A DNA stretch of 52,254 bases from positions 1 to 52,254 of IMG/VR virus record IMGVR_UViG_3300024344_000020; one strand, 5' to 3'. Positions 7,108 through 37,556 of this stretch are shown here, piece by piece. Both the position numbers and the translations under genes were made by a program. The notes under the pieces are model-generated. The model was not told the origin of the DNA and searched no databases. It saw nothing but the letters and a program-made list of their open reading frames with translations. Every line of letters begins with the position of its first letter. Position 1 is the stretch's first letter. This stretch comes from a virus.

Positions 7108-10100
7108 ATGACTATTCTATTATCGCAAGAAGACTTAGATACATATGGTGAGACTACTGAAATAGAACAAACAGAAGTAGCTCCAGTTGTTGAGGATACA
7201 AATAATGTAGTACTCTCTCAAGACGACTTGGAGAAGTTTGGTGGTATTACTAAATCACAAACTACAGCGCATATAGATGAGGCTTCTGACCCATTGTTCC
7301 AAGATGATGAAGTATCAATGGGTACTAAGTTTGCCTATGGTTTCCAGAAACAGCCTACTGACGTAGAGAACTTAGCTATCTATCTTGAAGCTAAGTATCC
7401 TATGCCTGGTTGGTCCACCTCTCATACATTGCCAAGTAAAGAAGGCAGTAGTTTCTTTAAGAGTGTTGATGAATTATATGGTGAGGGTTTTGAAGATAAG
7501 CCAGAAGATGAACGTAGAGAATTAATTCAACAATATAGACAAGAGTATATTGCTAGAGAATATCCAGTCCTCTCAGCTAAAGAAAAGACAGAGGGTAGTG
7601 AGTACGACAGAAGTTGGTCAGAAGCTGTAGGGGCGTTTACAGGTTTATTAGCTACACCTACAACATTAGTCCCTATAGGTCATACGTATAAAGCTGCCTC
7701 AGGTATAGGTGCTTTGTTAGGTTTCTCATATGGTGTGACAGAAGGCCTTGCTGAAAAAGGTGAGGTGGATTGGAATACTACTGGCACATATACTGCAGGT
7801 GGTGCTGTCTTGAGCCCTCTTATGATATGGGGTGGTAGACAATTTACTACACGCTTTAAGAAAGCTATGGACACCCGTAACCTTAAGAAGCAAACTAAAT
7901 CTGCAGAAGAATTAATAAATACATATGACTCGTTAGTCTATGAAGCAGTACATAAAGGTGAGACTGACCCTACACTACTATTTAAAAGACTTAACCAGAT
8001 GTTAGGTGTTACTAACGATGATTTAACGCAAGCTGCTAAGTTGGCTGAACGTAAGATATATGTACCTACAAAGAAAGAAGCTGACTTATACTTTGAAACT
8101 ATAGCACACGTTGAAGGTAAAGCTGCCAAACCTGGTGGTGGTTTCGATGAATATCTAGGTGTACTTAGCACACGTGTTAAAAATATAAACGTACCTATCT
8201 GGCACAGACTACGTAAATTAGAGTATAATCAACACGCTAGACTACATACTAACTATACTGAGGTAGCTCCTTTCTTAGAGGGGCTATCTAAAGTAAAAGG
8301 ACCAGAGAAAGATGCTTTGATTCTGAGCCTATATAATGGAAAGAATAGACAAGTAGAAGCCTTACTTAAGAAACAAGGTAATATGGAGCTGTTAGATGCC
8401 TTTAAAGCCACACAACAAACCTTAAATAAGCTACACCAAGAAGCTACTGACGCAGGACTAACATTAGGTTATAAAGAAAACTACTTCCCTAGAATTGTTA
8501 AAGATGTTGATGGTATGCAACAGTACTTTGGTAAGGATAGACGTGATGAGATTCTAAGAATGATTGAAGATGCGGCTATTGCTAAGGGTGAAATACTAAC
8601 TAAAGCAGAGCAAGCAGACGTTGTTAATAATTATCTTATCGGTAAGAAGTATTTAGTAGGTGGTAAGTTTACTGCGTTTAATAAAGAACGTAAGATTGAG
8701 ATAGTAACTCCTGAACTATTAAAGTTCTATGAAAATCCTGAGCAAGCGTTACACACGTACATTAGACGTGTTGTATCAGAAACAGAGAAGAAGAAGTTCT
8801 TTGGTAACGCTTGGGAGAAAGGTGGTCTAGATAGTACAGATATTGATGAGTCTATTGGTAGATTACTTCTAGAAGAACGTAGGATAGGTAACGTAGCTCC
8901 AGGTGATGCTACTGAGTTAGGTAGATTATTACAGCTAAGGTTTGGTCCAGGTGAACAAGGACCTAAGAAATGGATTCAAGCGTCTAAGAGTATATTATAT
9001 GCACAGACACTTGGTAACCCAGTATCAGCTGTTACGCAGTTAGGTGATATATTTCTATCCTCATATAAGAATGGTATTAAACCTACAGTACAGGCTCTGT
9101 TATCTAAGAAAAAGATTAAGTTAGCTGACTATGGCTTCACGGATATTGCTGAAGAATTTGCCTCTAAAACTAGAACAGCTGAATTTATGCGTAAGACATT
9201 TAAGTGGGGTGGTTTTAGTAGGGTTGACAGATTAGGTAAAGAAACATTACTTAATAGCTCATTCCTAAAGTACACAAAAGAAGTAAGTACTCCTGCAGGA
9301 ATGAAAGCCTTTAGAAAGAAATGGAGAAAAGCTTTCGGTGATGACATCAACGAGCTGGCTGAGAACTTAAAGAACGGTAACGTTGATAACGACCAGGTAC
9401 GTCTCTTGCTATGGCACGACTTATCTGATATGCAGCCTATTTCATTATCTGAGATGCCCGCTAAGTATCTAGCAAGTCCAGACGGTAGAGCGCTATATAT
9501 GCTTAAGACGTTTACTATTAAACAGTTTGATATTATGAGGAGAGATGCTTTCCAATTAATGAAGAATAAAGAAACAAGAGCTGAAGGTGTTAAGAACTTA
9601 ATTAAGTACGCTACTATCTTTACTGCAGGTAATATGACATCAGATAGTATTAAGTCTTGGATGTTAGGTAGAGAATATGACATAGAAGATTCATCTCTTA
9701 ACTCCCTATGGAGACTTATTGGTTTAAGTAAATACTCAGGTGAGCAGCTTGGAGATAAACCTTTAGATGTTATCTGGGGTTTAGCTAAACCACCTATAAA
9801 TATTTGGGGTGATATGTTATCTGCAGCGCAGGACGCTATGGACTTTGATGACGATACTGAAGCATCTGATAAGTGGGTCAAGGGTGTACCTATTGTAGGT
9901 AAGCCTGTATATGAACACTTGTTAGGCGGTAAAGAAGAGTATCAAGATAAGATGGACAAACAGCGTAGAGGTTTTAGACGTGGAGGTATAGTCGCACAAG
10001 CGAACCGCTTGGGTTTTAATGAGGGGGGTAATGTTCAAAAAAACCCTTGTGAAGGGAAGGAAGGCTTAGCACTACAAATGTGTAATCTTAAACAAGAGGT

Positions 10101-13100
10101 CAGGGATAAGACTACTTGGAATGTAGATAAAGATACTAAAGTATTTCTTAACTTAGGTAAAGATAATGTAGGTATACAATACAGACGTTCTTTTAATAAA
10201 GGGGGTGAAGTATCCCAAAACACACTTCCAATATCTACAGAGTCTCAAATCTTAGTTGATAATGAAAATGTACCGTTTGTTGATAGGATTATTAATCCAC
10301 AAGATTATCCATACCCCGATGAAAATAAAGATGGCAGCATATCTACGCACCTATTATCTGCTGAGGTTGACGAGGATGGCTCTGCTTACGTCTTTCCTAC
10401 AAAGGTGTACCAAGATAAGGGTTATAAAACTTATACCGAGAATGAGCGTTTTCAGGCGTTAGAGGATGCTAAGGCTGCAGGCAATGCTATTAAGTTTGAT
10501 GATATTGATAAGGCTGTAGACTTCTCTAAGAACTATAAGACTGATGCGTTTAAAAAATACTATAGACGTAAGCCTTTAACAGAGGATGTAACTAGTAACT
10601 TAGATAAGATATATAATACTCCTTCCAACATAGGAGATGCTTGGGGAAAGAGAGCTCTTAATATGCAAGAGACTATACAGAGAGCTAAGAAAGGAGATAT
10701 TAATGCACTTAAATTTGCGTATCATATCTTTGGAGATTTATTTGGTGGTGCTTGGGATACGGGTGGTGAGTTAATAGGTACTACTACAGATACCGCTAGG
10801 GTTAATGCTCGTTATACTTTCCCTGATGCTTATAGTATGGTTGCTGATACTCTAAATTCAGCGGGTAAAAAAGCACTTGAAACAGATATTGCCCAGAAAG
10901 GATTAAAAACCGCAGGTGATATCTATGAATGGTATCAAAGTTATAAGGAAGAAGACCCTATTGGTGCTAAAGATTTAGAAGCTGGTGCTAATCTATTCCC
11001 ACTTGCCTTCCTAAAATTTAAGGGGTTAAATAATCAGATGGATGATTTAAACATCCCTAATAAGAAAGATAATGTGTTAGAGGGTGAGGTACTTTCTCCT
11101 GAAACTTCTAAGTATCAATTTAAACCTAACTCAGATACACCACATATAGATGTTAATACTACTGAGCGTTTTAAATATATAGGTGAGAAAGCTCAGAGTG
11201 ATATGCACGATGTTAATAAACTATTTAATCCTGATGTTATCAATAAGGCTTTACAGAGTACAGATAAGAATACTAATGTTGTTTATATGACACCTGGGCA
11301 GTTCTTAACTCTAGCTAAAACACATACCTCTACTTCTGAAACAAAGAAACTTGATAGAGTTAACAAAGCTATTAATGATGGTAAGCAACTAGAAGATATA
11401 CCTACGTTAACAATGACAGTAGTTAAAGGTACAGATTCTAAGGTAACTAACCACGATGGTAGACATAGGGCTATGGCACTTGAAGGTTTAGGGATAGGAC
11501 TTATACCTGTTAGAGTAGTAACAGAAGGAGTTAAAGAAGGTGTACATCTAAGGACGGTTACGAATGAAGATGGTAATGAAGTTTATTCATTCCCTCATAG
11601 TGCAGTTTATAATAGACAACACTATGGTGATACTAAGACAATAGAAAATAAGCGTTATAGTTTAAAGGATAATAGTGAACTTGTGGCATTAGCTGAAGGT
11701 CTAACAGAGTCTGGTGGTTTTAAATATAAGTTACCTACTATGTTACTTGACCTAACAGTTAAAGAAAAGATAGCACCTAGTAAACCTTCTCACTGGAAAT
11801 ATACTATTAGTCGTTGGGCTAAGAAAGGTAAGATTAAGAAAGAGGAGTTAGAGGATTCTAGAATTATGAATTGGTTAGAATCCCAAGACAAAGAGACTAA
11901 GATATCCACTGAAGATATCTTTACTTTTATGCAAGAGAACTCCCCAATGCTTAAGACATACACAAGTAAGGTACAATCTAAAGCTGATATGGAGTGGTTG
12001 AATAAGCAACCGTTATACCAAAAGAAAACTAAGTTACAAGAAGAGTATCACAACAAGTTGGGAGAAGTGGCGTACCTACAGGAAGCAGCAAACATAAGCA
12101 GTGAATTATCTCCTATTCACACTGCCCTTATAAAAGAAACTGCTGACTGGGTACATCACGTTTCTGTAGAGGATGTAATGACTCCTGGTTATAATTCATA
12201 TATTACCGCCACGAGTGACCCTGAAATATACGCATTTCTCCTTAAGTCACCATATAATAAAAAAGCTATTAAGGCGGAACGAATTAATGCTAAGTTACTT
12301 AATGATACTGATAGTATATTTCATCCAGATAACGCATCTGAATTTAAACCTAACGATATAGTTCCATATATGTTAGGACAAAGTAGCCCAGAAAAAAGAA
12401 ATGGATACATTGCTCAAGCGATTATTGAAAGACTTAATCAAGCATATATAAGAGCACCTGAGGGGCGTAGACGTAAAGAACTGCTAGGTAACTACGTAGA
12501 TATTATGCTAGCTAGTTTAAAAGCTAAACTAACTAAAGATACTTTTGAATATGAAAAAGGTACTAAGCTACGTAAATTATCTAAAGAAGCGATGGAAAGA
12601 ACAGCAGGCGATGTATCAGCGAATACTTGGGGTACGTTTGCACTACCTAATATGCGTGGTAAGCCTGTAACTATTCTTGTTCAATCTAAAGTAGGTAAAG
12701 AAGACAGACTTAAAAAACTTAAAGACTTTCGTGATATTGTAGCTAAATACTCAGCAAGCAGCTGGGGTGATAAGGTGGATGGGATTTCAACCTTAAGAGA
12801 TAGAATTGATAGGTTGGAAAAAGACAGAGATACTAATCCTGCAGACCAACGTCTATTTCCTATATCACGTCTACTGAAAGAAAAACGTTTCTTGAAAGAA
12901 AGACTGGCTACTTTTAAAAAGGAAACAGGTGTTGCTTGGGACGATAGACATAACTACATAGATAATGTTGAAACTGATATATATAAAGAGCCTCATTGGA
13001 CTGGAACATATGGTGAATCACCTCTTAAGAAAGGTATCCCACAAGAGAATATCTTTATGCATATTAGAGGTAACATCATTAAGCAAGATAGTTTAGGTAG

Positions 13101-35634: not shown

Positions 35635-36138
35635 TTATTTATTTTGAGATAGTAAAAAGGCTTTAATAACTTTATCCGATAATTTCGCTAATTCTTTGTT
35701 ATATGCCTTGCGATTTTCACTTATAACAGTCTTATTTTTATCATTTTGATATTTTCGGATAGTTTTATAAGTGGTGGTTTTATCAATAACTTGATTATCT
35801 TTTAAATATGATTTAACCGCACTTATAACAGTTTTAAACGTTCCCGTTAATGGTTTTGCGGTTGATTGATTTTTAATGCCTTTCTTTCTAAGATAGATAT
35901 TATTTGTTTGATAGTCTGATACTTGCTTATTTTCAAAACTTGCAAAATCCAAATCCTTATACATTTTTACAATATCGTCGCAAATGGTTGTTTTTGTGAT
36001 GTTTAATTTAAACAATTCTTTGTCCGTTTTATTGGATAGGTTTAATAAGTTTTCAAATTGTGATATCTTTTTATTTTTAACGTTTGTGGGTGTAGTGTTG
36101 TTCGCTGTTTGTGTATTTTTTTGTTTTGTAGTAGTCAT
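35635..36138 (-). CDS. First early gene: basic Lys/Asn/Thr-rich protein, possible regulator
   Basis: A 167-residue basic protein. The first 25 residues are low complexity (Thr, Asn, Gln, Lys). The rest is helical (FENLLNLSNKTDKELFKLNITKTTICDDIVKMY...) and ends KLSDKVIKAFLLSQNK. No family is recognised. It is monocistronic, lying between the leftward promoter at 36267-36294 and a terminator. Its leader carries the longest operator copy (21 bp) and two tandem 18-bp palindromes. An autoregulated DNA-binding protein is a fair hypothesis. The strong AT bias is shared with the surrounding DNA. Confidence 0.65.
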   Translation of the reverse strand: MTTTKQKNTQTANNTTPTNVKNKKISQFENLLNLSNKTDKELFKLNITKTTICDDIVKMYKDLDFASFENKQVSDYQTNNIYLRKKGIKNQSTAKPLTGTFKTVISAVKSYLKDNQVIDKTTTYKTIRKYQNDKNKTVISENRKAYNKELAKLSDKVIKAFLLSQNK

Positions 36139-36157
36139 TTTTTTATCCTATTAAATT

Positions 36158-36178
36158 GTAAATAAACAGTTTATTTAC
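36158..36178. promoter_or_regulatory. Operator palindrome copy 5, extended to 21 bp
   Basis: The core AATAAACAGTTTATT at 36161-36175 extends to a 10-1-10 perfect palindrome at 36158-36178, 19 bp upstream of ATG 36138. It is the most complete copy and may be the strongest site. Confidence 0.75.
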
Positions 36179-36190
36179 GTAGTTATTAAA

Positions 36191-36228
36191 TGTTGTATTT
36201 TTACAACATTTGTTGCGTTTTTGCAACA
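36191..36228. promoter_or_regulatory. Two tandem 18-bp palindromes
   Basis: TGTTGTATTTTTACAACA (36191-36208) and TGTTGCGTTTTTGCAACA (36211-36228), with centres 20 bp apart. Both are perfect or near-perfect inverted repeats with outer arms TGTTG/CAACA. They lie in the leader between the leftward promoter and ATG 36138. They are either operators bound as a pair or, as RNA, two small hairpins. Confidence 0.7.
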
Positions 36229-36266
36229 TATACCAAAAAACACCTTTGTTTATTGATATGGTTGCC

Positions 36267-36294
36267 ACTATACACGAAAAAAAACATTTGTCAA
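36267..36294 (-). promoter_or_regulatory. Leftward early promoter
   Basis: Minus strand TTGACA (36294-36289), 16 bases, TATAGT (36272-36267). Transcription would begin near 36260 and give a leader of about 120 bases with the palindromes described above. Confidence 0.7.
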
Positions 36295-36409
36295 ACTATT
36301 TTTTAACTATCACGTTATTATAATATGCTAATATAGTTGGCTCATAAAAGAATATGAACGTGCGCGCGTAGCATAGTTTTTAATCTTTGTCAAGTTATTT
36401 TTTAACTAT
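36287..36409. repeat. Two 24-bp near-identical units 99 bp apart
   Basis: TTTGTCAAACTATTTTTTAACTAT begins at 36287 and a copy differing at two positions begins at 36386. The first contains the -35 of the leftward promoter. The second lacks a good -10 on the minus strand. A related TATTTTTAAACTATTT sits near 36831, ahead of the rightward promoter. Confidence 0.6.
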
Positions 36410-36459
36410 TTGCGTATTATTATATTATTATATTGTAATAGTCTTATATAGTTGATGCA

Positions 36460-36478
36460 AATGAGAATTATTATCATT
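36460..36478. promoter_or_regulatory. Fur-box-like site 1
   Basis: AATGAGAATTATTATCATT fits all 16 specified positions of the Vibrio-type Fur consensus AATGAnAATnATTnTCATT. It lies in the gene-free 36139-37118 region. Confidence 0.65.
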
Positions 36479-36488
36479 TAGATTTATA

Positions 36489-36568
36489 TTAGAGTATCAT
36501 AATATTATTTTATGCCTATATAACGGTATTCTAATGCACTGTAAACCACTTTAGAGTATCATAATATT
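36489..36568. repeat. 18-bp perfect direct repeats around Fur-like sites
   Basis: TTAGAGTATCATAATATT occurs at 36489-36506 and 36551-36568. A further 12-bp repeat, TCTTATATAGTT, stands at 36442-36453 and 36568-36579, directly ahead of Fur-like sites 1 and 2, so a composite unit is duplicated. Confidence 0.75.
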
Positions 36569-36579
36569 CTTATATAGTT

Positions 36580-36598
36580 AATGAGAATGATTATCGTT
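36580..36598. promoter_or_regulatory. Fur-box-like site 2
   Basis: AATGAGAATGATTATCGTT: one mismatch to the AATGAnAATnATTnTCATT consensus. It starts 120 bp after site 1. Confidence 0.6.
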
Positions 36599-36643
36599 TA
36601 CATTATGAGTATATTATGATATTCTTATGTAATATCCTATATA

Positions 36644-36662
36644 AATGCGAACGATTCTCATT
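36644..36662. promoter_or_regulatory. Fur-box-like site 3
   Basis: AATGCGAACGATTCTCATT: two mismatches to the consensus. It is followed by TGTATTC, which is also present after site 4. Confidence 0.5.
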
Positions 36663-36672
36663 TGTATTCACT

Positions 36673-36691
36673 AATGCGAGTGATTCTCATT
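36673..36691. promoter_or_regulatory. Fur-box-like site 4
   Basis: AATGCGAGTGATTCTCATT: two mismatches to the consensus. It starts 29 bp after site 3 and forms with it a tandem pair of nearly identical units. Confidence 0.5.
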
Positions 36692-36697
36692 TGTATT

Positions 36698-36730
36698 CGC
36701 ACGGGGTACGCAGGGGACACCCCACCCCCC
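36698..36730. other. GC-rich island in the AT-rich control region
   Basis: A 33-bp stretch with runs GGGG, GGGG, CCCC and CCCCCC, able to pair GGGGT with ACCCC. It is strikingly different from the surrounding AT-rich DNA. It might be a terminator stem without T tract, a recognition or packaging site, or an origin element. From here to the promoter at 36861 I see nothing else. Confidence 0.4.
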
Positions 36731-36860
36731 TAGTATAATTATAGCCTTAGTTTACATTTTACACAGAAATACCTTGTCAACCACATAGCTCTAAAAAGGC
36801 TCTGTATAGGCTTTTCGCGGAACACTAAGAATTATTTTTAAACTATTTACGTTTTAGGGG

Positions 36861-36889
36861 TTGACAAAACCTCTAAACAGGTGTATAAT
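36861..36889 (+). promoter_or_regulatory. Rightward late promoter, copy A
   Basis: TTGACA (36861-36866), 17 bases, TATAAT (36884-36889): a perfect consensus. It lies inside a 38-bp sequence (36853-36890) repeated without change at 39517-39554. It drives terminase and, by read-through, the head and tail genes. Confidence 0.88.
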
Positions 36890-37008
36890 ATATCTTAGAG
36901 ATATCTTAAAAAGTTTAGTTAAATAATATTTATAAGAAGTTAATTATAATTAGTTATAGATAATTGTTATAGATATTGTTTAATATAATTTATTACATAA
37001 CTTACTAG

Positions 37009-37025
37009 GAACTCATTATGAGTTC
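37009..37025. promoter_or_regulatory. 17-bp palindrome in the leader of the terminase genes
   Basis: GAACTCATTATGAGTTC, an 8-1-8 perfect inverted repeat about 95 bp upstream of the terminase small-subunit gene and downstream of the rightward promoter. It could be an operator or an RNA hairpin. The rest of 36890-37118 is AT-rich leader with short direct repeats (TTATAGATA twice near 36954-36975). Confidence 0.5.
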
Positions 37026-37118
37026 TTATACAATATCTAAAGAACTCTTATAGTAGCTTAATTATAACTACTACTATATGCTTTGTTTAGGTTGTTAGAC
37101 AAAACAGGAAGGTGTTAG

Positions 37119-37556
37119 ATGGCTGTACCACAATCAATGTTAGATAAGAAGAGGAATTATACAGAGAAGCAACAGAGTTTCTTAGATGCTATGTATGACT
37201 CTAAGACTGGTGATGTTAGACAAGCTATGATTGTAGCAGGGTACGATGGGAAAGCTCCTTCTACATTCTTATTACAATCTTTATCAGATGAACTAATAGA
37301 GATAGCTAGTCATACGTTAGCTAAGAATGCTCCTAAGGCTGCTAACAAGATAGTAGATATTATGACTAGTGATACTCCTATACCACAAGTAACACAGAAA
37401 CTACAAGCAGCTCAGACTTTGTTAGACAGAGTAGGAGTTGTTAAAGAACAGAAGATGAACGTAGAACATAACGTATCTGGTGGTATCTTTGTTATACCTG
37501 CTAAAGAGGAACTAACTGTTGATGCTGAGGAGGTAGAGTGTGAGTCTATTAACTAA
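37119..37556 (+). CDS. terS: Terminase small subunit
   Basis: A 145-residue protein. The N-terminal part is a DNA-binding helical region (YTEKQQSFLDAMYDSKTGDVRQAMIVAGYDG), followed by an oligomerisation helix and the typical tail LLDRVGVVKEQKMNVEHNVSGGIFVIPAK seen in small terminases of marine podoviruses. It recognises the packaging site and stimulates the large subunit. AGGAAGGTG precedes the ATG. It overlaps the next gene by 17 bp. Confidence 0.85.
   Translation: MAVPQSMLDKKRNYTEKQQSFLDAMYDSKTGDVRQAMIVAGYDGKAPSTFLLQSLSDELIEIASHTLAKNAPKAANKIVDIMTSDTPIPQVTQKLQAAQTLLDRVGVVKEQKMNVEHNVSGGIFVIPAKEELTVDAEEVECESIN

Follow-up and report, generated by a model that had tools for sequence, protein, structure and literature searches.

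Fur-box-like palindromes in the divergent control region of a lytic marine phage are candidate binding sites for host Fur

The stretch of DNA analyzed here (the window) comprises all 52,254 nt of the IMG/VR virus record IMGVR_UViG_3300024344_000020, which comes from a lytic, marine phage. Its kinship with phages of the HTVC103P/HMO-2011 type was revealed by the terminase, the primase/helicase and the gene layout, all of which are related. TerL is 65–71% identical to those of HTVC103P/104P/115P (71% to Pelagibacter phage HTVC115P) and about 49% identical to that of Puniceispirillum phage HMO-2011; for the helicase the identity is 53%. By terminase and primase/helicase, the Pelagibacter phages HTVC103P, HTVC104P and HTVC115P are the nearest cultured kin; they differ from the window in that their Fur-box-like sites do not exceed the letter-reversed control. 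No tRNA genes that could give a host clue are present in the window, and assignment of a host from genome contigs was rejected, since the seven binned contigs were of mixed taxa.

Leftward genes, starting from position 36138, include replication genes and a class Ia-type ribonucleotide reductase, while rightward genes, from position 37119, encode terminase, portal and capsid. They are separated by 980 non-coding bases with a G+C content of about 26%, and the palindromes considered below are located in the middle of this gap (Table 1). Neither an integrase nor transporter cargo was found in the phage, and an Rfam search for a known RNA element gave no match.

Table 1. Features in and beside the divergent control region, in window coordinates. 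Loci of other viral contigs are given by their L numbers.
Feature	Position	Strand	Remarks
First leftward (early side) ORF, 167 aa	35635..36138	-	No family match
Predicted leftward sigma-70-like promoter, TTGACA-16-TATAGT	36267..36294	-	11/12 positions
Fur-box-like palindrome 1, AATGAGAATTATTATCATT	36460..36478	+	0 mismatches to AATGANAATNATTNTCATT
Motif TGTAAACCAC between boxes 1 and 2	36540..36549	+	Recurs in L007, L011, L016, L017, L012
Fur-box-like palindrome 2, AATGAGAATGATTATCGTT	36580..36598	+	1 mismatch to AATGANAATNATTNTCATT
Fur-box-like palindrome 3, AATGCGAACGATTCTCATT	36644..36662	+	2 mismatches to AATGANAATNATTNTCATT
Fur-box-like palindrome 4, AATGCGAGTGATTCTCATT	36673..36691	+	2 mismatches to AATGANAATNATTNTCATT; in 26-nt repeat family
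G/C-run tract adjoining box 4	36702..36731		Read in window and relatives' control regions
Second copy of TGTAAACCAC motif, TGTCAACCAC	36775..36784	+	Present again in all relatives scanned
Predicted rightward sigma-70-like promoter, TTGACA-17-TATAAT	36861..36889	+	12/12 consensus positions; equal score in 6/6 relatives scored
First rightward ORF, terminase small subunit	37119..37556	+	phrog_2538, E 0.00063; similar to HTVC103P/104P gene of that name

The first-pass annotation of this DNA had described four Fur-box-like palindromes between the leftward and rightward transcription. A scan of the window with the 19-bp Fur consensus pattern AATGANAATNATTNTCATT returned the same four sites with the same coordinates and mismatch counts, and their placement was also correct, with a sigma-70-like promoter match and the first ORF on each side. 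Palindrome 4 begins 29 bp after palindrome 3, and an overlapping, register-shifted match to the pattern with 3 mismatches is present at 36586. The observed sites exceeded every shuffle. Whole-window dinucleotide shuffles contained on average 0.56 matches at three or fewer mismatches and 3 at most, as compared with 5 observed. For Markov shuffles of orders 1–3 confined to the AT-rich control region (36142–37118), the mean number of sites at two or fewer mismatches was 0.005–0.011 and the maximum was 1; four sites were reached in none of 4500 shuffles. The 19-bp palindrome thus matches the Fur consensus and is more frequent than expected by chance and than the reversed motif. The same 19-bp inverted repeat constitutes the Fur boxes in gammaproteobacterial chromosomes (Vibrio consensus AATGATAATAATTATCATT, PMC7536154); box 1 fits every specified position of this consensus, to which Aliivibrio Fur binds in EMSA (PMC7536154).

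Relatives of the phage were drawn from 80 loci obtained by a TerL search of viral contigs, most of the related loci being metagenomic. Fur-box-like sites were revealed in the control region of the near-identical contig L006. According to the first-pass annotation, the sites should be conserved in close relatives, and this holds for L007 and L008 (three sites in the same control region), L010 (one), L011 and L015 (two), and L016 and L017 (four), but not for the equally close L012 and L013 (TerL 86%), in which no Fur boxes were found in the control region. Many other loci of the 80 (61–78% TerL identity) had no boxes, and some were too short upstream to judge. The positions of the boxes do not align between relatives; their kind is kept while their number and place shift, which looks like turnover of binding sites. 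By searching with the box itself, we also found more distant relatives, which have in common with the phage the primase/helicase (L170, L179, L185, L244, L245) or the terminase (L116, L166), with boxes upstream of the gene concerned; found in this way, these loci show that such arrangements exist and not how frequent they are. In L179, two boxes 29 bp apart are located in a divergent gap with DnaA boxes on both flanks.

The promoters and DnaA boxes reported here are consensus matches. A match comparable to the leftward promoter is present in L007, L012, L016 and L017 and absent from L011 and L015. According to PMC7536154, the Fur box of chromosomes is located in iron-gene promoters, with the -35 element on one side and the -10 element on the other. 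The boxes of the phage, by contrast, are at least 165 bp away from the predicted promoters, and no iron-uptake gene was found alongside them. Neither of the two strong predicted promoters is overlapped by a box, and for this reason we do not speak of a classical Fur operator. In the window, L007 and L016 the boxes are located 165–250 bp from both flanking predicted promoters, a distance that does not agree with simple occlusion of the latter. The predicted promoters that do touch a box are weaker and are not conserved among relatives.

Other elements recur in the same region. The motif TGTAAACCAC / TGTCAACCA is usually present in two copies per control region of the relatives, including the boxless L012. 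The G/C-run tract keeps its place beside the array (L010 341–370; L011 1020–1060), with the G-rich strand swapped in L010, L011 and L015. AT-rich repeats of about 10–11 bp (e.g., ATTAGAATAT, ATTATGATAT) were seen by eye at 36480–36642 of the window, in L011 (600–1030) and in L012 (3010–3250). In some relatives the control region is filled with them, whether Fur boxes are present or not, and they vary independently of the boxes: L012 and L013 contain repeats without boxes, and L016 contains boxes and few repeats.

The box is not restricted to this lineage. A scan of viral contigs for exact AATGMGAATGATTMTCATT revealed at least 120 stretches, as compared with 3 for the same letters reversed. With four box variants as the BLAST query, matches were obtained in 435 of the 50,697 phage records, and with the letter-reversed query in none, a contrast to be read qualitatively since a palindromic query may self-pair and add matches. 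The matching records were mostly phages of Escherichia, Salmonella, Klebsiella, Cronobacter, Pectobacterium and Vibrio, with those of Enterobacterales predominating; PAK_P4, PAK_P3 and HTVC027P gave no Fur-box match. Arrays were found in phi92, anhysbys, GAP31 and Erwinia phage KEY, with a spacing that is often 29 bp from start to start. In T5 (L290, AY543070) a cluster at 9552–9715 is located within the annotated injection stop signal (9140–10149), and in DT571/2 (L284) a long array of a T5-like phage (8407–9019) adjoins DnaA boxes. As in the window, the same box is clustered in non-coding DNA of lytic phages; in contrast to the window, the arrays of T5, phi92, GAP31 and KEY lie between converging genes, and these phages are unrelated to the window phage.

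It should be mentioned that phi92 (NC_023693) contains more Fur-box-like sites at 26–290 and 147407–148559, with identical sequences repeated near both ends of the record, and that L107, a contig with 21% G+C, has at least seven such sites inside 500 bp (2215–2703). A single preferred spacing of 29 bp was rejected, for this distance is conspicuous in several phages but only weakly over-represented in less biased box pairs, 35 bp being more so. Similarly, we do not claim enrichment of tight box pairs in viruses over bacteria: they were counted in 50 viral stretches and in none of 398 genomes, but the viral collection was probably much larger.

These computations give good support to the proposal of the first-pass annotation that host Fur recognizes the palindromes: the motif recurs in related and unrelated phages, the reversed controls are near zero, and no match to a Fur-family gene (PF01475) was found in the six records tested (the window, L116, T5, phi92, GAP31 and KEY). 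We infer that host Fur probably binds the palindromes. Fur-family genes are present in Pelagibacterales genomes, two of them in a Pelagibacter-labelled genome, and the Fur box is found in Pelagibacterales above the reversed control. The idea that SAR11 phages lack the box because SAR11 itself lacks it was rejected on the latter ground.

A strict DnaA box was located within 300 bp of 28 out of 151 box clusters from viral contigs L087–L206 and L242–L283, as compared with 5.1% of non-coding control points, and the reversed DnaA motif near 6 out of 151. This enrichment points to control or origin regions as the surroundings of the clusters. No strict DnaA box was found near the window's own array. 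The skew minimum of the window lies at 35–36 kb, and AT-rich repeats are present; the gene direction switches at the same place as the skew, so that the divergent control region is no more than a possible replication origin.

What seems to us the best explanation, although a tentative one, is that the host Fur sites gate the control or origin region according to iron status. Binding of iron-loaded host Fur to the four palindromes would give rise to a nucleoprotein complex midway along the divergent control region, possibly at a replication origin. As long as iron is plentiful, this complex would hold back transcription or origin firing, and it would let them proceed when iron falls. The suggestion of the first-pass annotation that Fur could gate early transcription does not follow from these data: the boxes are off both promoters, their positions turn over, and arrays elsewhere lie between converging genes. 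Gating is also opposed by L012 and L013, which manage without boxes, and by the absence of a strict DnaA box near the window array.

Alternatively, in line with the other suggestion of the first-pass annotation, titration, the boxes could be a decoy that binds host Fur and regulates no phage gene, which we consider rather unlikely. The laboratory Fur titration assay makes use of Fur boxes in multicopy, which titrate Fur. Accumulating phage DNA would titrate Fur, host iron uptake would be derepressed, and iron would become available for iron-dependent enzymes, among them the class Ia ribonucleotide reductase of the phage. This course of events is in agreement with the presence of several boxes per genome, with number kept while positions turn over, with the arrays between converging genes in T5, phi92, GAP31 and KEY, and with the reductase encoded by the phage. 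Host iron-uptake transcripts are raised by some phages (PMC12753301), including PAK_P4 as cited in PMC10986025. However, PAK_P4 and HTVC027P, the reported raisers of host iron uptake, have no boxes, and a link to the reported up-regulation was rejected for this reason; HTVC115P has the reductase small subunit and no boxes, and the iron demand of the reductase was likewise rejected as an explanation. Furthermore, the boxes of the podovirus lineage keep to a single control region, a constancy not required of a pure decoy. The turnover of positions and the locations elsewhere between converging genes favor the decoy, while the consistent location of the boxes within the lineage slightly favors the gate. 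If Fur does bind, iron-responsive gating would have about an even chance, and titration a clearly smaller one.

It is improbable that the array is an operator for a phage-encoded regulator, or a set of initiator iterons, that resembles Fur boxes by accident. Its location in the phage's own control region beside AT-rich repeats, and the several small early genes with no assigned function, would suit such a role, but the AT-rich repeats vary independently of the boxes. The same motif with the same degeneracy is found in T5, phi92, GAP31 and KEY, unrelated phages for which a common regulator is not to be expected, and most of the matching phages infect hosts that use the Fur box; because of this, host Fur, the simplest common ligand, and not a phage regulator most likely binds the boxes across phages. 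Slightly less probable still is another host protein, either one of Fur-like specificity, a member of the Fur family (Zur, Mur, Irr) or a nucleoid protein preferring AT-rich palindromes. Fur-family paralogues may be relevant if the host is alphaproteobacterial like the hosts of the nearest cultured relatives, and the Pelagibacter-labelled genome does have two Fur-family genes; however, the motif is the classical Fur box and not a looser AT-rich palindrome, and this box is present in Pelagibacterales genomes as well. Finally, a chance resemblance, for which one could invoke the low G+C content of the region and the AT-rich, degenerate nature of Fur boxes, is very hard to reconcile with the local shuffles, the reversed-motif controls and the recurrence of the sites in relatives.

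In lambdoid coliphages, a Fur box was described ahead of the sitABCD cargo operon (PMC6969025). As in the window, a phage genome contains a site for host Fur, but there the box controls a metal transporter that a temperate phage carries as cargo, whereas the window contains a control-region array, and neither an integrase nor such cargo was found in it. Changes in host iron genes during phage infection are also on record (PMC12753301, PMC10986025, PMC9305737, PMC12282109). As far as we could find, the open papers searched do not describe arrays of Fur sites in any lytic phage, do not treat the T5, phi92, GAP31 and KEY sites as Fur boxes, and offer no mechanism that would let a lytic phage read the iron regulator of its host or take it over; older T5 work lies mostly outside these papers, and an earlier description is possible.

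It can be proposed, with considerable reserve, that lytic phages (marine podovirus-like, T5-like, Vequintavirinae and phi92-like) have repeatedly and independently acquired arrays of host Fur sites as a control element, one that makes phage transcription, replication or DNA entry depend on the host's iron status. Phages may in this way sense or hijack that status. Some phages reportedly alter host iron metabolism. Since a Fur-site array is present in the control region of this phage and similar clusters in T5 and other enterobacterial phages, both Fur binding and the effect of iron on infection can be tested in a standard laboratory system.
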